Shown here: positions 1,843-28,835 of the stretch, piece by piece
Layout of the letters: each line of letters begins with the position of its first letter
Numbering within the stretch: the stretch's first letter is position 1
Assembly (NCBI GenBank): GCA_010094025.1
Contig: ML991901.1
Location: forward strand, 1 to 29,977
Length of the DNA: 29,977 nt
Direction: 5' to 3'
Source: Viridothelium virens
Taxonomy: Eukaryota; Ascomycota; Dothideomycetes; Trypetheliales; Trypetheliaceae
Notes under the pieces: generated by a model
The model's input: the letters and a program-made list of their open reading frames with translations, nothing else
Database searches by the model: none
What the model was told of the DNA's origin: nothing
Translations under genes and position numbers: made by a program

Positions 1843-4800
1843 ATGGGGGACAGGCTTGCACGCTTGGTTAAGCGTAGGCCAAAGTCAGAGGATCCACAGC
1901 CCGATCGGCTTCAACAGTCTCCCGCTCCACCAATTCTTTCTCGGACTCCTTCGCGGATTCTGTCACCCTCCAATGCCTCCATTGACGATGAACAGAGTCT
2001 GCGGCTTGGCGATGCTCGGTCGCCTGCTTCCGACAGTCCAAGACCCGGCGGCAACTCTAACAGCAATAATAGCACACCGAGGCCGACAGTGCAAGAGGCC
2101 GACGACATGTGGGCAAAGGCGGATAAGAAGTTACGTGAAGACCCAGAGAAGCGCAAGAAGCTGGAAAAGTACGACCGTATCCTAATGTCGCACCTCGGGT
2201 GTTTAGTTGGTAGCCGCAGCACTACTGACACGGGGCGCGTTCTCGCGTTTTTAGAGGCTGAAATTGAGGGCCTCCAGAAGGACGCAGACACCGGACTACA
2301 GGGCTGTACTCAGAAGGCCAAGCACTACTTCCAATCACTTCTTAGATGCGGGAGTGATGGTGCTGTCACGGGTAAGGCGCTCACTGGTGCGGCCTGTTAA
2401 CGTATTAAGTATTCACAGCTTTGTCTCGACGCCATTGACCAGCGACACATCCTCTTCGAAGGCTTAGCAACCGTCGCTGGCGCAATCCGTCGTCTTGCTG
2501 AGTACGAGCAGCTGCTTTGGAAGCAGGGCCGCCCCCGCCTTGAAGAAGTTGAAGGGTCCATGATTGCTGCCTGTACTTATATTATTGAATTTTAATCAAC
2601 AACAATAACTTATCCCACCCATCAATTTTAATAACATTGCGGATGGCGCTCTCTAGCGGATTGCGTTGTAGGTATAGAGCTGTTTAGGATTAAAGAAGCA
2701 GAGGTCAGTGTCTGAGAGTGCGCGGAGAGAAAAGGACTTTGTGAGGTGGAGGCGATTTTTGACATTATATAAGATATCCCTCACTATATTTATAAGGGCT
2801 TTACTGGGCAAGAAAGGGCGCAAGCGTCGCTAAAACGAGGTAAGCAAGTAGATTTGTTTCTTTAGCTACTCCTCTAAAGAGGTTGCGTCTCCGAAATGAT
2901 TAAGAATAAGAACCGACAACGGATTTGGGGTACCTGCAACTGGTTTACCAACCATAAGCTTTTTAAGGCATGGAACCTTCCCACTGCAGACATTGCGCCT
3001 GGATTGCTTTACGTAATAGCAGACCCTGGTTATGGCAAATCAGTCTTGTTAAGGTAGGTACCTCATTGATGAGATTTTACCGGACGAAAGACGGCTAATA
3101 TGCTACTTCTTTTTTAAAGATAACTTTGTGGAACAGAAGAGCGCTTGCAGTGCGCTTTGCATGTTGTTGCACCAGACTTTTGTTGCAGATCCGTCTCTAT
3201 TAATAGATGACATACTCACACATTATCAAGCTCACGGCACGCCCTTTGTTAAATCACTTAACCTTTTATGGAATACGTTCTTAATTGCTACTGCTGGCCA
3301 AAAAGTTACTGTTATTTTTGATGCTTTAAATAAATGCAGTGAGGAAGACAGACAGCAACTTATCTCCAGAATTACTGGACTCTACCAATATGGGTGGACC
3401 AAAGCAGCGCCAAGCTCTGGTCTGAACTTCTTATTTACAAGTTGACCCTACGCATATATATCGCGCAGGTTCGCTGCATTATCCGACCCTCAGCTGCCGT
3501 CGATCCATCTCCAAGGTGACAAGGGTGAGGCATCAGATGAGATCGCAAAGGAGATTAAGAAGGTCGTGGATATTAGAATTGCCGAAATGGCGAAGGCCTT
3601 CCATCTCACGGACGCGGAGCAGAATCTTATGATTGAATAACTGCATGCTGTATTAAACCGGACATATTTGTGGATTACCCTTTTGTTTAATGGTCTAATA
3701 AACTCCAAATCTGTTCTTAAGAAGCAAGACATCCTTTGCCTGACCAAAAAGCCTCCTCAAGGGGCTGATAAGGCGTACAAAGCGATTTTGGCCAAAAGCA
3801 TGGATAAACATATAACTAGAAGGCTTCTTCAGATTGTGCTGGCAGCTAAGGAACCCTTAATTACTTCGCAGATGGCTGTGGCTTTAGCGTTTAAAGGTTT
3901 CAACTAGTCCCGCGAAGATGTGATTGACAACATCATCCCGGATGACAGGATTTAAGAAATAATTAAAGACTATTGCGGCTTATTTATTATATTCATCAAT
4001 AATAAGGTGTACCTTCTTCACCAGACTGTGAGAGAATTCTTATTGCGCCCTAAACCAGAATGCAATGTATTAATAGCAGCGCAGCTTTAGTTTTACCTAT
4101 CCTGCCTTTTAACCTTTTTGCTCCAGCTTCTGTTCGCACCGACATGGAAACATATTACAACAATAACAGCTGCGAACATAGTCCTTACCAAGATCTGCAT
4201 CTCCTACCTCTATCTTGATCTTATGGAGGAACATGACTTACTTCTTAAATACTCCGCTCTAAATTGGGCGGATCACTACCGCCGCTCATATATGCGCTGC
4301 CAGAAAACAGCGGCACCAACAGCCTGGGATCTCTGCGAGTTGTCCGGAGCGGATAAGTTCTGGATTTCTATTCTAGCAGGGACAACGCGCGTCCCTAAGA
4401 AGGGGCCAGCGCTCTGTCTTGCGGCTGCTCTAGGGCTTGAAGGAGCTATCGGGTATACTCTCAAGAATAATTGGGCAGCAGTGAACGGTAATATTAGAGA
4501 CGTTGATTAGAAGGACGTTATCGAAGGCCGGATGCCGCTGTCGTGGGCTATATTGAAGGGGCATGAGGCGGTGGTAAGGGTGCTGCTCGAGACGGGTAAG
4601 GCCGATATCAAGTTAAAGGATAATTACGGCCAGACATCGCTGTCACGGGCTGCACAGATGGGGCATAAGGCTGTGGTAAGGCTGCTGCTTGAGACAGGTA
4701 AGGCTGATATTGGGTCAAAGGATAATTATGGCAAAACACCGCTATCATGGGCTGCAGAAAGCGGTCGTGAGGCGGTGCTAAAGCTACTGCTTGAGATAGG

Positions 4801-5593: not shown

Positions 5594-6168
5594 CTAACCG
5601 CGGTCAGTGTGCTTATACCACACATGGTCCTCAATGTCACCGTCCGGCCATCCACGTTCTTTAGCGTACTTTTCATCGCAGCCAGGGACAAAACAGTACG
5701 AGTGACTTGTCGACTGCGCATGTCTGTAATTATCTTCGTCCGGAAAGCACACTTGATGCTCTTTGCACCCAGATATATTGGCTCTGCGGTGCCCAGCCAA
5801 ACGATCTTCGTTGTCAAACCATTTGTTGCACCAGTTGCAGGAAACCCTTGTGTGCCTATTGCTATCACTTGATCCGTAACTGCTTGCCGGTGAACTTTGC
5901 CGCCCATACCTGCGACAGTGGTATCATGGTACGGGACCAAGGCGTTGCTTTCGTGCGCCGCCATCACGTCATCATCATCTTCGTTCTCGTCCTCGTCTTC
6001 GTCCTCGTCTAGGTCCAGTGAACAGCTACATTCGTCTGAGTCATCTCCACAAGAAATGCAGTATCGAGCTGAAGTGTATCCGCGTTTACGGCAGCTCTTG
6101 CAGAAATCACCAGTTCCTGACCATCCATGTACACGTTTTCTGCAGCATGATGCGCAGTATTTCGTCAT
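5594..6168 (-). pseudogene. Cys-rich / C2H2 zinc-finger protein, frame-disrupted
   Basis: From ATG at 6168 the protein starts with three CxxC-type knuckles (YCASCC, FCKSC, YCISCG), then CSC and an acidic Asp/Glu run coded by GAC/GAG/GAT repeats (about 5960-6015). In this frame the text then becomes meaningless. A second frame, from about 5850 down to the stop near 5594, holds clear zinc-finger text: CNWCNKWF...LAGH, then SYCFVPGC...DHVWYKH (C-x4-C and H-x4-H). I tested the GT and AG dinucleotides in the overlap: all nearby AG sites are in one phase, and no nearby GT donor gives the needed shift, so a small indel is likelier than an intron. The role could be nucleic-acid or protein binding. 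A sequencing error is the main alternative. Confidence 0.55.
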
Positions 6169-7710
6169 TCTTGCGACCTCACTGATCGCAAGTCCCTAAC
6201 ACTAAAGCAGCAAGAACTGTATCGCCAATAGCATTACCAGATTCGAGGGCCGAGGATTGAACTACCTCCGCCTCGTCCGAAAGGTATAGATGAGGACAAA
6301 AAGATGGTGGGCTCGGAGAGAATGCACTAATTTAATCTGTTCTGATGCTTGGTGAATCCGTAGCGAAGATGAGTAGATGACCGAGTTACCTTCTCCAAGA
6401 AGACGAAAGAGCGAAAAGAAGAAGGACGAAACGGGTGAGAGATAAGTAGTAGAAATCCGACTGATATGCGACTCTCCTACTCGATCAAAAGCCTCGGTGC
6501 CACCCAAATGCAGTCTTCCAAATTCGGGTTGTTCGATCAGCGCCTGTGCCCAAAACTGCTTCAGTCCCAGAGGAGCTTTGCAACAGGAGTAACAGTAAAG
6601 ATCGCTTGAGCAAGGCTTAATGGAGCCCCGTAATTACCTTCGACCATGGCAAAAAGCTTTAGCGGTCCTAGAAAGGACTCATCATGAAGATAGGTCAATG
6701 TTAAGACAAGTCAAGATCGCCACTAGGGGCAGTGATAGACTGGCCCACCTACCCATCCTCATTGCTACCTGTCTTGCTGCAACTTTGATTGACCTGGGCG
6801 GATTGTAGACTTACTTGGGCTAGACTACTCGCCCATATCCCGTCCTAAGTGCCTCCTGATTGGTCTTGAGGGGTTGCATTCTCGCTAGCCTTGGGTAAAT
6901 GTAATAATATCAACCTTAGGTGGGTTGCAATCGGGCTGGGACTAGACGGCTCCTTTGTTTTCTTCTAACGTAGGGCATGTGCAATTCGCTCTACTGTAAC
7001 CCCACGTTTCCATCTTTGATGGAACTCTTACCTCGTTCAGCAGCAATCAGTGCATGCGCTGTCCCTAGATATTCAAACAGCATTATCAGCTCACTCATAA
7101 GTGTTCTATCTATCCCTCCAAATTTGTTCAAGCTTGATAGGCGCACTAGCCCGCTTCGCTGTCAGCTGATAAAAGTAATCGAAGCCCGCAACATCAATCT
7201 ACAAGATTTTTTTACTAGCAAGCTATGAGACACGTTCGCGTTGCTCCTCCGTAAGACGTACGCTCTGGCGCTGCCTTCCCAGATTTTAGCCTCACACAAA
7301 ATAGCACCTGGATGCAAGTCAGCTCCGATCCATCAATGATAGTCTCATTTCTTAGCTTCCCTAGACGCTCATCCATACCAGGCGATAATTTCATAGAGGA
7401 CAACCCAGCGCACCGAGTCCCTCACAGGAAGTTACCGCTCAATAAAACCCTAGCTGAACTTTTTGGAACTTTGTTCCTCAAAGCAAGATATCACTGCAGT
7501 GGTACGCGTCTTTGTAAGGCTGCTGCTAGCTCCAATGGTTATACCACTTGAGCGACATCATGATTTGTCGATTCCTCAAAAATGACCATCAGCAGGCAAA
7601 GCATTTGACCCTCGCCTATTTTGCTAAATTTAGTTCATATAGCCTCCAAAATTCAGAAAAGGCTCTCATCTCTTAATGCTCCAACTTTCATAACCCTGAA
7701 CGCAATACTC
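6169..7710. other. Gene-poor spacer
   Basis: Open frames here are short, lack family motifs and look like chance. Around 6620-6960 there is GC-richer text with GGGCGG/CGCCCA inverted words that could be an old transposon end. On the minus strand between about 7560 and 7000 a stop-ridden frame contains some protein-like words, but I cannot assign it. Confidence 0.45.
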
Positions 7711-13914: not shown

Positions 13915-16900
13915 TCACGTAAGACTTGCCCCAACATTCCCGCCGTTCTCCGGATTTGCTTTTATCGAAGGCTCCCGCGAAGGCTTTTCGATGCCCCATT
14001 TCTCACGAATCGCATCCTCCCACTCAGCGACAGGCACGATCTGCCCGCCAGCGCGCTTCCCGTCCTGTAATTCACCGCCCATCCGGACGTGGCCTTTCCC
14101 TGTCATCTCAAATTCTTCTACCCAGGAAGGTACTCGAAGCCATGAGTGGTCTCGGCTACAGACAAAGCGTTTCAGCGTCCCGTTCTGCAGTTTTTGAAGA
14201 CATTGGTCGTCAAATTGGACATCGTCGCACACCTTGCAAAACCAAATGCTATCCTGGTAAGTCCAGGAGTTTTGGCAGCGTCCATCGCAGCGAAAAGGCA
14301 TGGAGTCTTTCCGTTTCTTCTTTGGGGCTGCACTTGCTGGGACAGATTCCTCTTCCTCCTCGGATTTCCCAGCTTCTGAAGATGCGTTGTCTTTATCAAG
14401 ATCTTTTTCCAAGGAGGGTTGCTCCACTTGTCCTCCTTGAACTTCTCCGGAGTTCCCTGTCCCATCAAGGATTTCCTTGTCAGACGAGCTTTGAGGCTGG
14501 GATGGAGAGCCGTCCTCTTGGTCATGATATCTTTCGTCAGGACCAAATAGGGACCATGCGCTTAGAGAGTTAAGATCGTCTCCCACATGCATCAGTATGT
14601 TCGCTATCTGGCCATACGCATAGTAGTCGTTTGTCGGATCGTCGTCACACAACAGATCAAATCCGACCTTCATATCGTTTAACAGCAAGTTCCGTGCCTG
14701 CTCCTGCTCGCCTGCCAAACTGTAAAAACTGGCAAGCGACAGACGAAGCGGCTGTGCAGCGAGAGGATTTGTTCCCGCTTTCTTGGTCAACTCTTCCAGC
14801 TCGACCATGTGGTTTCTGAACTCGTTGCTCAGGCTTGATGTGGATCGCGCATTTGAGAAGTGATAATTGAAAACATATCTAGCTGCCCAGATACCGCTGA
14901 AGATTTCCTTCCAATAGTTGGATTGGAAGCCTATCTTGCAGCAGTCCATCCACCGTGCCAAGGCCAGCTCCAAATTTTTTTCTTCGTCACTGTGACGAGC
15001 TAGAGCGACCCCATGTGAAATAAGCAGATCGACCACATGAGAATTTTTATTGCTGTTTTGTGCAAACGTGAGCGCAGCCTGTAACGTTTCTAGGACTACA
15101 AAGAACATTTCGTCATGTTTGCTGATACGAAACAATGTTTCAAAGCAGTCTTGCGGCTCGTCCCAATTCGAAAATTCTAACATCATCGATCCAAGCCGAG
15201 TGAGAGTTTTCTCAGCAGATGGCTGCGCACTCATATCTTTGAGGACAGCAATGGCCATTGATCCCTGTCCGCTTTCCATGTATAACGCAAGAAGTCGATA
15301 ATAACTTGGATAAGAAAGCGGATCTAATCCAACAGCTTCTGCCAACCTCTCTGTTGCTCCCGTTGTATTGTGGAGCTCCGTCTGCCAGTCTGCCGATTTG
15401 AGGAGATCTGCAATAAAATCCTCTCTCTCATCTTCGCTCAAATCATTTTTCGCCCTCAGGTACGCAAATGCATTTTCCATTTCTCTGACTGCTTCCTTCT
15501 TATCGTCCTGTGCATCATATGCTTGAGCAAGGCCTTCAGATACCCTCCAAGAGCACTCAGGTCGATTTTTGGCGTTCAGAAATGCTTCCTTTGCGAGCCC
15601 AGGCTCAGAAATCCGGAGATAGGTTGCCCCAAGTCTTTCATGCCACAAGGAGTTCTTTGCAACATCTTTAATCTCCTTTTCAACCCATTCAACCGCTCTT
15701 CGGACCCGTGCACTCGGAGACTTCTGTTCTATCGTTACGTTTGGCTTAGGCTCATCACCGGCTGTCATTTCTTCAGAGTCGTGCTCAGCAGGATCCTTGC
15801 TCTCCGACTCTTCGTTTTCTGCCTTATCTTGGCTAACTAGCTTCTGCTCAATAAAACCGTCAATCCATGAAAATAAGGATTCAGGGGTCCAAATCCTCTC
15901 ACACAGCCAGTGACGAGCTACCATCGTCGCAAGACCTTGTAGAGGTAGTAGTGGATGACCACAAGTGTTGCTTTCCACCCATGCTCGATCACTGCGGCTG
16001 AGCTGACCGATCGCGTCGAAGTCTCTTAGCCATTCCTGTACCGCATTTGGAGCAAAGTCATCGTTCACCCAGTGATGGCCGTGGAGAAAGCCTTCATTCA
16101 AATGTCTTTCGAAGCACTCCGCTGATCGGAGTAAGCTGACTAGATTGCGAACAATCTGTTGTTTTTCTGCCAGCGTCAAAGAGGCAAGATTCGTCTCATT
16201 TCGAAGCTCACGGAGATGAGACGGTAAATGAGACACCGCATACCGCCCGAGTACCTTATTTTCTTCTGTCACATCATCCAGCAGTATAGAAAGGCACCGA
16301 TTTGTGAGAGTCAGATGTGATTCAGCCGGGTTTGCGCTAATTACTACCTTTCGAAAATCAGTCGAGGGAGTGGCGAACGAGAATTTATCGAACATCATCT
16401 TTTCACTCAAATCCCAGAAAAACCTCTGCGCTTTCGGAAGCTCGACATTGTTGAGACGAATTGTCATAGAGACTGTCGGTTCTGCATTCTTTTCTAGTTC
16501 CTCCTCGTGTCTTCTCCATTTCGAGCTCTCGAAAAACTCGCAAAAACCCCAATCTCTGACGACAATATCATTGTCACCATCCACTTCAAGGATCTTGTTG
16601 TACTTTTGTCTAATTTTTCTTTCGAGCTTCTGATGTGGCGCTCTTTTAGTGCGCTGCAACACGGCTGCGCGCATCTCATCCACTGACATCCACCTTATAC
16701 CATAAATTGTCCACAAAAGGAGCTCATTGAGTTGTTCAATCTCCTGAGCATTGAGTGAAGTACTCAGCTCGCTGATGATTCTTCTTATTTTCTCATCTCT
16801 ATCTTCAAGATTTTCCACGCTGATGCATTCTTCAATGTCTTTTACGTCTTCTTCCGATGCGACTGCCTTTGCAACGTTGCTAATGACTTGTTTGACGTTA

Positions 16901-18585
16901 TTGAAATTCCCATTTGCGATCTTGGGAAGTTGCTCTCGAATTAGGCCTACTATTCTCAATATGGATGGCTCCTCACTATTTAGGTCCTCTTTGGAATTGA
17001 GCTCGGACTCGATGTGTCTTTGAATATCTGCGTTATTGTATTCCGAGACGCGGATCTTCGGAACCAACTTAAAGTTCTCTGAAGACTCTTCCGAGCAATC
17101 TTCTAGAGTTTTCTCTGTTGCAGTGATCACGACTCGTACCTTGGGTGATCTGATTGCAAGAACCGACGTCGTTAATTGACGTGCGTCCTCGAGTGCGAGC
17201 TGATCCAAGCCATCGAGAATCAATATGAAACCAAAATCTGCAGTATCTTCCATGTTCGGAGGAGGAAAAAGCTCATTTATAAGATCCTTGGCTACCACAT
17301 CTCTCAAAAAAGAAGGATCTTTTGGCTTCAAATAAGTGAACAATCGTTGCGCGTAGACGTTATCTCTGGTCGCTATTTGCAACGCCATTGATTTCAAAGC
17401 CATGACAGGTTGACGCGTATTCTTACTGGAGCTCTCTCGAGAAGGCTTGTCATTTTTGTCAAAGCTATAACAAGCGACTGTTACCCTCTTCGACTTCGTA
17501 TCTTGTATTTCGTAATAGTTTCTCTGACTATCGAGGATAGCAGAAGCGAGGTAAGTCTTGCCGCAGCCATTGTCACCGCTAAGCACGAGCACTGAATTTG
17601 CATCAGACTCAAGATCGACCCATTTCTGGTAAGAATCAATAGTTTCCAGCCAATCTCCAGTATCTTTGAAAACTTGTGCGCGAGTTTGCTGGAAAGCTTT
17701 TTCCGACTCAAGAGCTCGATCTCTCGTGGTATCCAGCTTTTCGCAAATCAAATCTATCTGCTCTCTGCCCTGTGCCCTTTTTCTTCGGTCATTGGTAGCA
17801 TCAAGCATCATGTCCTTTGTCACAAGCACGCCTTCGTAAATGTTATCAAGTTTCCAGGAGTTTTCTTTCATCATTTCGCTCTGTATATCCGCGCTCTGTT
17901 TCAGCATGTCTATTCCATGCTTTGATTCCAAAACATTTTCCAGCGTGACGCCGTCTATCACTCTACTTTGATTGAGAGTCAGTCGCTCGAATTCCTTTAG
18001 TGTGTCATGGATTCCCGAATCATGGTCAAAGAGGACTAATTTGCTTATATGTACGACATGTTTCCATTTTGAGGCGCCTAATATGTTAATGGAAATGGCC
18101 AAGGCATCAACGAATGTAACTAAAACTTGGTTGACGCATTCTTTGAGATCCATGTCAACTTTCGGAAACTGCTCAATCCGACGAAATATCTTGAATTGTG
18201 TAAGGAATGTCGAAATCTTTCCAAAGAGCTGCTCAAGGTCGGCGTAAAATTTGGAGATTTTAGCGGGAATATCCATCAGAAACTGCACCGCATTGAAGCA
18301 AAGAGTAGCAGGACCAAAAACCATGGAAGCACCCTGAGCAGCAATGCCACCAAGTAGTTGGATAAACTTTAGTACATTTGTAGCCAATTCCTTGATGCGT
18401 TGCTGCCTGCCGCCCGAGTCGGGGTCTTGTGCATCGAACTTCTCCCGAAGGACACCAATTGCTTCCTCGAGACTCCGGTCCCTGGAGCCCCTGAGATTCT
18501 TGCTTGTCTTCTGCTCAAATTTTTTTGCAGCCTGCTCCCACATTTCCTCAAAATTGACTTCGAGCCTTTTGTCTTGGGAAGCCAT
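13915..18585 (-). CDS. STAND / NLR-like protein: Goodbye-NTPase-helical/TPR-ZZ finger
   Basis: A 1556-residue intronless protein. In fungi such proteins act as intracellular switches for non-self recognition or cell death: ligand binding to the repeat region lets the NTPase oligomerise and triggers the N-terminal effector. Domains in order: Goodbye-like N-terminus (about 10-200; FEEMWEQAAKKFEQKT, then helices to SKFYADLEQLFGKISTFLTQ); a linker; a P-loop NTPase with Walker A SGDNGCGKTYLAS (337-344 core) and Walker B ILILDGLDQL (454-463); winged-helix-like text (LLLWTIYGIRWMSVDEMRAA); a long helical region with TPR-like pairs (about 1000-1350; for example LWHERLGATYLRISEPGLAK); an acidic/Ser tract; a basic NLS-like PKKKRK (1421-1426); and a Cys-rich ZZ-like finger (1431-1488; CDGRC, CKVC, QC, C...H). 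ATG at 18585 lies in a good context (ATGGCT). No stop or frameshift is seen, so this copy looks functional. The effector type of the Goodbye domain is not known with certainty. Confidence 0.88.
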   Translation of the reverse strand: MASQDKRLEVNFEEMWEQAAKKFEQKTSKNLRGSRDRSLEEAIGVLREKFDAQDPDSGGRQQRIKELATNVLKFIQLLGGIAAQGASMVFGPATLCFNAVQFLMDIPAKISKFYADLEQLFGKISTFLTQFKIFRRIEQFPKVDMDLKECVNQVLVTFVDALAISINILGASKWKHVVHISKLVLFDHDSGIHDTLKEFERLTLNQSRVIDGVTLENVLESKHGIDMLKQSADIQSEMMKENSWKLDNIYEGVLVTKDMMLDATNDRRKRAQGREQIDLICEKLDTTRDRALESEKAFQQTRAQVFKDTGDWLETIDSYQKWVDLESDANSVLVLSGDNGCGKTYLASAILDSQRNYYEIQDTKSKRVTVACYSFDKNDKPSRESSSKNTRQPVMALKSMALQIATRDNVYAQRLFTYLKPKDPSFLRDVVAKDLINELFPPPNMEDTADFGFILILDGLDQLALEDARQLTTSVLAIRSPKVRVVITATEKTLEDCSEESSENFKLVPKIRVSEYNNADIQRHIESELNSKEDLNSEEPSILRIVGLIREQLPKIANGNFNNVKQVISNVAKAVASEEDVKDIEECISVENLEDRDEKIRRIISELSTSLNAQEIEQLNELLLWTIYGIRWMSVDEMRAAVLQRTKRAPHQKLERKIRQKYNKILEVDGDNDIVVRDWGFCEFFESSKWRRHEEELEKNAEPTVSMTIRLNNVELPKAQRFFWDLSEKMMFDKFSFATPSTDFRKVVISANPAESHLTLTNRCLSILLDDVTEENKVLGRYAVSHLPSHLRELRNETNLASLTLAEKQQIVRNLVSLLRSAECFERHLNEGFLHGHHWVNDDFAPNAVQEWLRDFDAIGQLSRSDRAWVESNTCGHPLLPLQGLATMVARHWLCERIWTPESLFSWIDGFIEQKLVSQDKAENEESESKDPAEHDSEEMTAGDEPKPNVTIEQKSPSARVRRAVEWVEKEIKDVAKNSLWHERLGATYLRISEPGLAKEAFLNAKNRPECSWRVSEGLAQAYDAQDDKKEAVREMENAFAYLRAKNDLSEDEREDFIADLLKSADWQTELHNTTGATERLAEAVGLDPLSYPSYYRLLALYMESGQGSMAIAVLKDMSAQPSAEKTLTRLGSMMLEFSNWDEPQDCFETLFRISKHDEMFFVVLETLQAALTFAQNSNKNSHVVDLLISHGVALARHSDEEKNLELALARWMDCCKIGFQSNYWKEIFSGIWAARYVFNYHFSNARSTSSLSNEFRNHMVELEELTKKAGTNPLAAQPLRLSLASFYSLAGEQEQARNLLLNDMKVGFDLLCDDDPTNDYYAYGQIANILMHVGDDLNSLSAWSLFGPDERYHDQEDGSPSQPQSSSDKEILDGTGNSGEVQGGQVEQPSLEKDLDKDNASSEAGKSEEEEESVPASAAPKKKRKDSMPFRCDGRCQNSWTYQDSIWFCKVCDDVQFDDQCLQKLQNGTLKRFVCSRDHSWLRVPSWVEEFEMTGKGHVRMGGELQDGKRAGGQIVPVAEWEDAIREKWGIEKPSREPSIKANPENGGNVGASLT

Positions 18586-24840: not shown

Positions 24841-27800
24841 CTACATTAGAAGTAAACTACCCAGCAGCACAGCTGCGACCCATGGTCGAGTCCACAGCAC
24901 TGTTGATACTGCTCGATCGGCTTGAGGGATGGCACTCGAAGCAGCTAGTGACGCGGTCGGGTGTGTACCTGCAGCAGATCCCGATCCCATTTTGGACGTA
25001 GAAGTTTCCCTGCAGGTACTAGATACTCCAGCTCCGGTTTCAGTCACAGTCTCGAAAGCTACTGTGCTTGTCCCGACCACAAGTCCATCGCCCAAATCAC
25101 TAACGAGCTGTCCATTCACAGTCACGGCAGTCCCACCAGAAGATAAGGTCCAAGTCATAGAACCTGCTGGTAACACGACTTCGCTCTGGCCTCTGTGATG
25201 TGGATCACTAACTTCAGTCGCAGTGTATGTCACACCAGATATGGGTAATAAAGCGATTACCCTCTGCGAGCGTGCTCCAGGCGCTGCAGAGAGAAACGTG
25301 CTCAATGATTGAAGTGTCGTCCCTATACGGAGATCGTTTCCGTTAAAGCTGATGAATTGGCCATCCAGAGTTATCGACTGACCCTGTTCTAAGGTCAGTA
25401 TCGTTGTTCCGAGTGGTATGATGATATTCTTTCCCCCATCTTGTCCCGGGGCTAGCGTTTCGAAAGCCGTAAATATCGACCCCTTCATTGAGAACGCCGC
25501 TCCTGTCTCTGTAGCTGCTATATCTCCTGCTGGGAAATTAATTGTAGACGAACCAATTACCAGACCATGAGGCGCTGCGCTATAGAGCTGGCTGCCGTCT
25601 GTGAATATAGGCCCTCCAATGTGCAGCGTCATGGTCAATGAGGATCCTGAGACGACAATACCGCCGCTCCCTCCGAGCTCAGTGCCATCGATTGGAGATG
25701 CTGTGATGGAATCTCCATTGACTGTGAAAACAGTTGGACGGATTGCAACGGGAGTATCCGAGAAGGGAATTGACTCAGTGCCGATGTTAACTCCACTCGA
25801 GCCTAGGCTAATCTTCTGGCCATCGATCGTTGCCGCTGGTTCATTACTATTGATAGTGAGTGAGCCGATGATCAACGGACGCCCAGAAGAGGCAGTATAT
25901 GTTTGTTGACCAACAGCGAAGACAGCCAGCGGAATACCTGTTGAAGCCACCATCGCGCTCAAGTCTTCGCCTGCAAGCACAGGACTTGGATATGCGGGCA
26001 CAAGGTTGCCGGATACAGCGTCTTCGCCGACACCATCAGTTGCAGGGACTCCAGATTGCGAATGCAAATGTGAAGCCTGAGGAACAGGAGCGCCAGTTAC
26101 TGGACTGTCGTTTGGATCGCCTATAACGAGACTTCCAAGTTGCAGGTCGGAATGCTGGGATTCCGAGTTGCCTGCTGCTGGGCTGTCGTGGGTATCAGCT
26201 ACTGTTGGAACCCCTTGCCGTGTCCCCATTTTCTGAGCACCCTGGGCGCCTCCCACAAGCACTGAAGGAACGCTATCGGCAGCGTCATTCGCCGGTGAAC
26301 TGAAAGCCGCAAACCCTGCGTTCTCTTTTCCTAGAATCGATGCTATGCCGGCGCCAGCTTTGTGACCGATATTGTTATCAGAAGGGTCGCGAGATAGGCT
26401 GGTAGTAGATACAGCAGGAAGACGATACCCCGGATCGAGAGATGCAGTTTGATGCACCGCTGGGTCAAGGCTATGTGCTTGAGCAACGCCAGGACTCGGC
26501 CCGAACACACCACTGAACGGATCTCTGGGACTTTTGGCAGGATCTGCACTCGATGCCGGAAGGTCGCCATTAGCGGGAGGCTGGGATGTCGGATCTACGG
26601 AATTCGATTGACCCGTTGTAGGTAGTAATGTTGTTGTGGATGCTGGAAATGCTTGCCCGGCGTTGGGTTGTTTCGGATCTCCTCCTACGGCTTGTGACCC
26701 CACACTGACGGTGGCAATTGGCTGTGGTGCTGTCTGAGAGGGATGAACAGGTGGAGCATATGGTACTGGAGCTGCTCTCGTGGTTGAGAAAGGATCATTC
26801 TCAGAAACTGGTGCAGCGGCACGAGCAGCAGGCTGAAGAGCATAAGGCGGATCATACAAATTTCTGATATCTACCGAGCATCCTGCCCAACTCGGATCCA
26901 CAGTTTGCAGATGATCAGGCGGGACCACAAGCACAGGCTCGTACGGCCCGGTCTGCGGACAGATCGTATTAGTGAGGTTCTGGGGATCATGCATGTAGTC
27001 GTAGTAAATACTAGCAGTCCAAGACGCACATAATGGCTGACGGCTATATATGCTTTCAGGCACTGGGCTGTTGAGGTCCGTGAAGTTTAACGAGGCTGTA
27101 TGGGTCGCAAGATCTTGGCCACCTCCTGGAAAATCGACCCAAATACTGGAGAGTTCTTGTGTGTTACTCAAGGCGATGAAAGTCGCGTTATGCGTCGCGC
27201 CGATTGCTCCGCATGAATCAGACGCGTATATGCTCGCGTATGACACATATACAGTAGGCGAAATGAAGGAAGTGCCAAACGCAAAGGCTGTGAGAGGTGT
27301 GGTCCTTTGCAGCAGTATCGTGCTCTCATTCGCCGTCACAGTCGAGGTGACTGGCCAGTACAGCAAACGCACAGTTCCGCCCGTGATCGCGCACTGACCG
27401 CATCCCAGTGAACATCCAGCAGCGAGCATGGAAGTAGAGGGCCAATAACTAGTCGTAATTGTAGACCCGTTGGAAGCTTTGATAGTCGCGGCTTGATACC
27501 CTACCGAGACCATTGGGTCGTAATTGGGTTGAAATAGACTTGCTGGTTGATTAAATAGGCCCAAGGGGCCCAGCGAAGGATAAGCTCTATCCACCAACCA
27601 GTTGCTCATGTAACTAGAAGATAAGCCACTACACTTTTCGGGTGCAATAGAAGCTTGGCTGCAATGTGGAGATGGCGCGCTGTTCCCAAGATCAAAAGAC
27701 AAATGGTCGCTTTTATACGACAAGTCTTTATCTGAGCAGGAGACATCGATTAGTTCAGTACAGGACACTTTGGATGAGGTCAAAGTTGTGACTCTCTTGC

Positions 27801-28835
27801 TGACCCGATCGTCCCAGGCCTCCTGGCACTGGGGAAGACGAGATGGATCTGACGGAAGATGGCACCCGGGTGTTGGAATAGTGAGTGAGGAGGTCTCCGA
27901 AGTCTCGTCCGGATATTCAGTTTCAGTGTATGTCTCGGTGGAAGTGGAAGTTGTTGCAGATATGGTATAGAGATTAGCTTGAGGATTTGTGCCTGTATCA
28001 GCCTCTGTCTGTGTGGTATAAGTGAAGCCATCAGCACTTAGAGTATGGGTAAGTGTATTCTTCCACGTCTCTGTAGAAAACGACGTGCCGTACACTGCGC
28101 TGATACTTGTTACAGTCCAAGTGCCAGTCGTCGTACTCGTATTTCCGACAGTGACCCAACGGAAAGTGGTAGCAGAATCATATTGAGACCAATAATCTGT
28201 CCATTGCGCCCAGCATTTGCTAACGACAAAACTATCATTCTTGGAGCTGTTGGAAGGAGCGAGTGACAAATGCGGGATCGCCATCGTATTTTGAAGCCAT
28301 TCTGTTGATGCATTTGTAGGTTGTTCAACGCTGGCCTCCGATATTGTTTTACCGCTGTAGGGCTTTGTGGGGGAAGACGTAAGACTCGTTATGTTAAAAA
28401 GGTTAATGTGACGGTGGGACGCTGGAGTTTCGAGATTCTCCCCTTTGGAAAGCCTTATAGACTCTTGCATTGTAGTACCCCCATCTCTATTCAATGCCGT
28501 TGCAGTCGATTGTTTAGTCAAACTGAATCCACTAGCCACCAAGTCCCCAAGACCCACTGATTTCGTCGAACTTGGAGAGAAATCGGTCGGTTCAAGCTTT
28601 AGATTTGGGCTTGCAGGTGCGCTATTGGAGGTAGAGTGTGCAGTGAACGACGTAGATCTAGAATTAATCGGCACATGAGCTTCTGGATTTTCCTCGGAGC
28701 AATCAGTTATTATCCATTCGGAACATCGATCTTGCTCTTACCAATTGTTCTGGTCAAATTTTGGAAGGGAGATATACACTCAACAAGTAGCGTATGAAAA
28801 GGCAAAGATTGAACTAGACAGTTCAAGTGAAACAT
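24841..28835 (-). CDS. Large Ser/Thr/Pro-rich GPI-type cell-surface protein
   Basis: Spliced parts are 28835-28742 and 28682-24841 (1311 residues). The main exon has no ATG at its 5' end (the frame enters through GAA GCT CAT GTG), which forced the search for an upstream exon; GTAAGA...CCAG of 59 nt joins in phase to MFHLNCLVQSLPFHTLLVEC ... LTRTI. Sequence: Ser/Thr-rich N-terminal third with many N-x-S/T sites; a Cys-containing middle (CSLGCGQCAITGG, WVDFPGGGQDL); a Pro/Ser/Asp low-complexity stretch (SLDPAVHQTASLDPGYR); then repeated modules of the type FTVxGxxxTASxxGxxLxxG / LVIGSSTINFPAG / LVVGTSTVAFETV; and a hydrophobic end WVAAVLLGSLLLM after a Ser/Ala/Gly tract, as in GPI anchor signals. 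Expected role: cell-wall mannoprotein or adhesin. A convincing signal peptide is not seen, so the first exon may be incomplete; good acceptor TTCTGTTTCTACAG near 28868 hints at another intron upstream. Confidence 0.75.
28683..28741 (-). other. Intron of the surface-protein gene
   Basis: 59 nt, donor GTAAGA, branch-like CTGAT, acceptor CCAG, phase 1. The same length as the metalloprotease intron. Confidence 0.7.

Follow-up and report, generated by a model that had tools for sequence, protein, structure and literature searches.

A Goodbye-type fungal NLR gene of Viridothelium virens whose product most likely ends in a divergent ZZ finger

The 29,977-nucleotide stretch of Viridothelium virens analysed here (GenBank assembly GCA_010094025.1, contig ML991901.1, positions 1 to 29,977; hereafter the window) bears on its minus strand an open reading frame (ORF, 13915..18585) that runs from ATG through stop without an internal stop and potentially encodes a protein of 1556 amino acids. 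From the reading of this frame and from a paralog (locus C64), the product is a Goodbye, STAND (signal transduction ATPase with numerous domains), tetratricopeptide repeat (TPR)-like and ZZ protein. We consider it reasonably likely that it is a fungal NOD-like receptor (NLR) of the Goodbye-NACHT-TPR type, in which the TPR-like region and a divergent ZZ finger form a C-terminal sensor or regulatory arm, activation follows the NLR scheme and Goodbye provides the output. Within this genome, one NLR family regularly carries a C-terminal ZZ finger.

The ORF is not a chance frame, since the second copy at C64, in a genome of 30.7 Mb, is 44% identical to it across residues 7-1546 and also lies in a single open frame. 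Over 1508 aligned codons the two genes showed differences of 0.41, 0.33 and 0.66 at first, second and third positions, a pattern that fits constrained coding sequence. When the whole protein was searched against bacterial and archaeal genome contigs and IMG/VR with six short peptide patterns, which detect close relatives only, no relative was found. Neither Rfam models nor a tRNA search matched anything in the window.

The two N-terminal domains are both far over the Pfam cut-off, and genome searches for each placed them at the same spots as the scan of the protein itself. Goodbye (residues 16-134, 18184..18540, PF17109, E 4.3e-31), the predicted effector or output domain, provides the N-terminal effector-type domain of a fungal NLR. 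The NPHP3_N or NACHT-type P-loop NTPase (residues 308-488, 17122..17664, PF24883, E 1.5e-18), with the Walker A motif GDNGCGKT (residues 337-344, 17554..17577), provides its NACHT/STAND NTPase. The following helical region (about residues 986-1350, 14536..15630, with boundaries set by us) contains TPR_19 at residues 1073-1121, at E 0.0014 and 19.4 bits under a Pfam cut-off of 25. It is called TPR-like because two aligned paralogs carry TPRs over the cut-off (TPR_14 at C10:120k, 5.6e-11; C57, 5e-10). NCBIfam matches, to TPR, P-loop and similar families, were all weak and far below cut-off. Next come a variable acidic linker (residues 1351-1428, 14302..14535), the ZZ finger (residues 1433-1480 from the first to the last metal ligand, 14146..14289) and a post-finger tail (residues 1489-1530, 13996..14121) with a common W pattern towards its end. 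The domain order given by a sequence-only reading of this DNA, namely Goodbye, NTPase, TPR-like region, a basic PKKKRK stretch and a Cys/His finger in one open frame, is thus borne out, on the minus strand, which that reading had left unstated.

These parts are unequally conserved. In the comparison with C64, which rests on this one paralog pair, identity was 59.7% in Goodbye, 42.0% in the NTPase, 40.2% in the TPR-like region, 33.3% in the linker (gapped), 65.5% in the finger and 59.5% in the post-finger tail. The finger, the tail and Goodbye are therefore the most conserved parts, and among the interior parts the linker with PKKKRK is conserved least, being poorly kept in the other paralogs too. 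In the alignment with those paralogs, some rows have an M assigned to their first residue. The post-finger tail could be aligned in eight of nine finger sequences; the ninth, from C65, had been entered without that exon.

The finger is a family feature. Goodbye occurs at 14 places in the genome, nine of which are genes over the cut-off (C131, which is the window gene, C10:124k, C57, C64, C18, C43, C65, C10:433k and C35), and all of these except C35, which has ankyrin repeats, end in the finger. A protein search of the genome with the window finger found six places (C131, C64, C57, C10:120k, C10:429k and C18), each of them closing a Goodbye/STAND/TPR-like region. The search with the C18 finger returned the same six, plus a chance-level match at C22 (E 0.217). 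C43 and C65 were recognised by reading the remaining Goodbye places, and the C65 finger is split across two frames. Another STAND locus, C16, has a Pfam ZZ match, and its Goodbye piece (17.3 bits) and TPR (17.5 bits) are both below cut-off. Besides C35, the Goodbye places rejected as finger-less were a fragment at C86 and two places, C3 and C46, that score better as DUF7708.

The same kind of tail closes four ankyrin-repeat STAND loci (C126, C34, C18:113k and C10:275k). Like the window gene, these have a STAND NTPase, repeats and a C-terminal ZZ; they differ from it in the ankyrin nature of the repeats, in their other N-termini (a PNP_UDP_1 frame precedes C126) and in a Cys as fifth ligand. 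Scored alone, C18:113k (22.9 bits) and C10:275k (28.6) exceed the Pfam ZZ cut-off of 21.4, and C126 (20.9) and C34 (19.1) fall slightly under it; C34 exceeds it when scored with its neighbours in the genome-wide Pfam ZZ search. STAND loci with a ZZ-like end thus number 13, nine of the window type and four of the ankyrin type, further places from that genome-wide search standing outside this count. At nine loci (C10:120k, C57, C10:429k, C18, C65, C16, C34, C18:113k and C10:275k) the parts were joined as one gene by their order on one strand. The sequence-only reading had held a finger after the sensor repeats to be unusual for fungal NLRs, and this is contradicted by these 13 loci and by a published census of Sordariales NLRs (PMC12258605). 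A finger found in eight of nine Goodbye genes, with ZZ tails also in print, is a common known tail of the family, the very case which that reading had named as telling against it.

Within the finger of the window protein, the candidate ligands are C1433, C1437, C1450, C1453, C1462, C1476 and H1480. These seven are identical in all six aligned finger tails. In the nine-tail alignment five Cys are invariant (9/9) and the closing C-X3-H is present in all eight tails entered whole; in C65 the following exon likewise reads C-X3-H. The middle of the C18, C43, C16 and C65 fingers reads C-X2-C-X5-C-X2-C, which is the ZZ pattern. The fifth of the eight ligand positions usual for ZZ separates two groups: it is Asp in the window protein, Glu in C64, Asn in C57, Asp in C10:429k and Glu in C10:120k (together the window clade), and Cys in C18, C43, C65, C16 and the four ankyrin-type tails. 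For C34, C18:113k and C10:275k, the aligned stretches do not include the first Cys pair.

Profile comparisons gave the ZZ assignment. A profile of nine fingers matched the solved ZZ domains of BIG (E 2.7e-5) and HERC2 (6.4e-4); from E 0.06 upward its rows mixed ZZ with a FYVE-type chain and EB-family chains. With the four ankyrin-type tails added, the matches became stronger (BIG 2.3e-8, Nbr1 3.7e-7, HERC2 4.9e-7) and were followed by CBP, KCMF1 and p62. The window-clade profile aligned with the canonical C16 and C43 pair at an hhalign probability of 93.4 (E 2.6e-7), and with the single C18 tail at a profile-profile probability of 97.8. A model of residues 1427-1500 built with 13 sequences had a mean predicted local distance difference test (pLDDT) of 78.3 and a predicted template modelling score (pTM) of 0.64, and its best structural matches were KCMF1, Ada2, BIG, a chain of the SAGA histone acetyltransferase module, p62 and CBP, with modest Z. 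An earlier model made from six near relatives was too poor and was not used.

Several results weigh against this assignment and against the domain reading as a whole. The window finger has no match to Pfam ZZ (PF00569) at E up to 10, and the tails of C64, C57, C10:120k and C10:429k have none at E up to 5. Single-sequence phmmer against the PDB found nothing at E up to 1. ZZ homology by profile, evident for the family, carries the caveat that the profile of the window clade taken by itself reached just the BIG ZZ, at E 0.48. Furthermore, TPRs stay under the cut-off in seven of the nine finger-bearing genes of the Goodbye-STAND type, the window gene included. Among the homologous tails, Pfam ZZ scored C16 at 29.9 bits, over its cut-off, and C18 (15.3), C65 (10.5) and C43 (8.3) below it, so that only one of nine window-type copies passes. 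Of the profile checks suggested for the sequence-only reading, those for Goodbye and the NTPase succeeded, that for TPR stayed below cut-off, and the finger, missed by Pfam ZZ, was recognised as ZZ by the family profile. Its call of a ZZ-like finger is upheld by these profile comparisons; the structural model agrees in that its best resemblance is to ZZ domains, but only with modest Z.

Taken together, the profiles and, more modestly, the predicted fold make a divergent ZZ domain the likeliest identity of the finger. Going by ZZ topology, the finger probably has two zinc sites, with C1433, C1437, D1459 and C1462 forming one and C1450, C1453, C1476 and H1480 forming the second. It is like the ZZ domains of BIG, HERC2, p62, CBP/p300, Ada2, KCMF1 and PRT1 in sequence profile and predicted fold, but its first pair is C-X3-C rather than C-X2-C, its fifth ligand is Asp rather than Cys, its last pair is C-X3-H, and it has an additional conserved C-terminal tail. 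The ligand norm used for this comparison is partly common knowledge of ZZ domains. For the other part it follows PMC6098011.

In fungal NLRs the C-terminal arm is responsible for sensing and the N-terminal domain for output (PMC12258605, PMC9815663, PMC12881547), and for this reason the ZZ finger is assigned to the sensor or regulatory arm. Domain order, paralogs, family ZZ homology and conserved ligands were computed, and the activation steps that follow are modelled on what is known of NLRs. The TPR/ZZ arm would bind a ligand or partner and thereby free the NTPase, upon which the protein may oligomerise; the N-terminal Goodbye helical bundles, which belong to the HeLo/MLKL superfamily, might then, once clustered, damage a membrane or trigger cell death in another way. 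Goodbye, HeLo and MLKL have a common four-helix core, and the function of Goodbye is regarded as open (PMC9815663, PMC12881547). The TPR-like region would be the carrier of variable recognition. The finger may be a constant module, which binds a conserved cellular partner or a peptide end or restrains the receptor as a brake, rather than a fast-evolving recognition surface, because it is far less changed than the TPR-like region between the closest paralogs.

A narrower possibility is that the finger reads a free N-terminus (an N-degron, a histone-like tail or an end made by a protease) and thereby activates the receptor. The solved relatives BIG, HERC2, p62, p300 and PRT1 have structures with degrons, tails or N-terminal peptides, as judged from entry titles, and two of the three p62 pocket acids D129, D147 and D149 (PMC6098011) are retained, as D1434 and D1455. 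The equivalent of D149, however, is Gln (Q1457), so the three-acid N-degron pocket is incomplete; in p62 the change D149R lowered binding nearly 30-fold (PMC6098011), and, as we read the alignment, the three acids do not occur together in any of the nine window-type fingers. We therefore regard this peptide-end reading as unlikely. A bolder form of it, quite improbable as it stands, would make the fixed ZZ tail of the Goodbye-STAND-TPR family, mostly missed by the standard profile and with an acidic ligand in one clade, a constant reader of protein N-termini that have just been exposed, that is, an NLR that senses proteolysis and whose TPR-like region tunes specificity. If this were true, counts of fungal NLRs with fingers would come out too low wherever they rest on profiles.

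It is very doubtful that the finger is an integrated decoy mimicking a host protein attacked by pathogens. Decoys have been discussed for extra NLR domains (PMC12258605), and the idea was raised for the zinc finger with which a Podospora NLR ends (PMC5658179). Yet decoys would be expected to be recent and patchy, and this finger is shared by the eight Goodbye genes mentioned and is diverged, with 62% identity to C64 and 19-39% to the other seven in the nine-finger alignment. The two finger protein searches revealed no standalone copy in the genome, other ZZ genes not having been examined as sources. Equally hard to credit is a mere structural cap or remnant without a separate role: the replaced ligand and the C-X3-C spacing, which departs from the ZZ norm, would suit one, but finger and post-finger tail are among the best-conserved parts and the seven ligands do not vary among the six aligned tails.

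The sequence-only reading had also suggested a nuclear output, in which PKKKRK (residues 1421-1426, 14308..14325) drives nuclear import and the ZZ finger acts in the nucleus. This stretch, which lies in the variable linker, resembles a textbook monopartite nuclear localization signal, and several ZZ proteins, such as p300/CBP and Ada2, are nuclear. PKKKRK is the only five-residue basic run of the protein, which has one four-residue run at 267. However, K/R runs of at least five arose in 205 of 5000 shuffles of the protein. The scan of seven other genes covered the whole frames of C64 and C43 and the C-terminal frames of C10:120k, C57, C10:429k, C65 and C16, with C18 left out. It found no basic signal at that place in any of them; a K/R run of at least four occurred only in C10:429k, elsewhere, after its finger, and looser K-K/R-x-K/R matches were scattered over five of the seven. 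As the basic run is unshared and lies in the poorly conserved linker, as membrane action would be simpler for a Goodbye NLR and as the N-terminal domain is held responsible for output in NLRs of this class, nuclear output is unsupported and extremely improbable, and we saw no case for it.

The receptor itself is ordinary. C-terminal ZZ fingers are already known in fungal NLRs. In the Sordariales census, 57 of 4613 NLRs had zinc fingers; the finger was C-terminal in 52 and of the treble-clef type in 23, 17 of the latter being ZZ, and all 16 fingers adjoining canonical repeats were treble-clef (PMC12258605). Its authors suggested that fingers of this kind could count as a further canonical sensor domain at the C-terminus. 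The Podospora finger mentioned above was given as a personal observation (PMC5658179). Like the window gene, the Sordariales ZZ-finger NLRs combine NACHT with a ZZ-class finger next to C-terminal repeats; in the parts of the PMC12258605 main text covered, a Goodbye-TPR-ZZ family is not singled out. A profile-based census could overlook the window finger, since Pfam ZZ gives it no score. Published Goodbye-domain NLRs share the Goodbye N-terminus, NACHT and repeats (PMC4986451, PMC9815663, PMC12881547), and none of the three main texts contains the word 'zinc'. Among the main texts of open-licence papers, none was found that joins ZZ-type, NACHT, fungi and tetratricopeptide, and open-licence papers, taken without supplements, did not yield a Goodbye-TPR family with a Pfam-invisible ZZ and an acidic fifth ligand. 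A conserved, small and purifiable domain offers a direct handle on the ligands of Goodbye receptors, which is valuable because Goodbye homologs are termed uncharted in function and structure (PMC9815663).

Some related loci deserve mention. At L059 984-4843 (plus strand), a PNP_UDP_1 frame is followed by a STAND/ankyrin frame with a terminal ZZ finger, which makes it a further kind of NLR that has this tail. Region C65:34500-42000 holds, at 3738-3919, 5966-6152 and 6432-6609, three copies of an element of about 180 bases that are 74-83% alike and each 74-79% like their own reverse complement; two coincide with points where the coding frame of the NLR is broken, and one of these points lies within the ZZ finger. 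We take them to resemble introner-like elements. L057 (C86:106624-107599) has Goodbye-like fragments with 29-47% identity to the window protein, one with two stops, on a contig without an NPHP3_N match; C86 is either a truncated copy or a gene with further exons. At L055 1655-5665 (minus) and L056 1016-2557 (plus), STAND proteins carry at their N-terminus DUF7708 domains that overlap weak Goodbye matches, hinting that the two domains may be related.

Elsewhere in the window, a second NPHP3_N (STAND) match at 2929-3442 (plus) consists of two pieces, one with internal stops, and is either an intron-split gene or a remnant. A Ser/Thr-rich ORF of 1277 amino acids at 24841-28674 (minus), without a Pfam match, has 47 matching places on 18 contigs including its own, some with tandem runs of about 65-75 residues, and looks like a member of a surface protein family.
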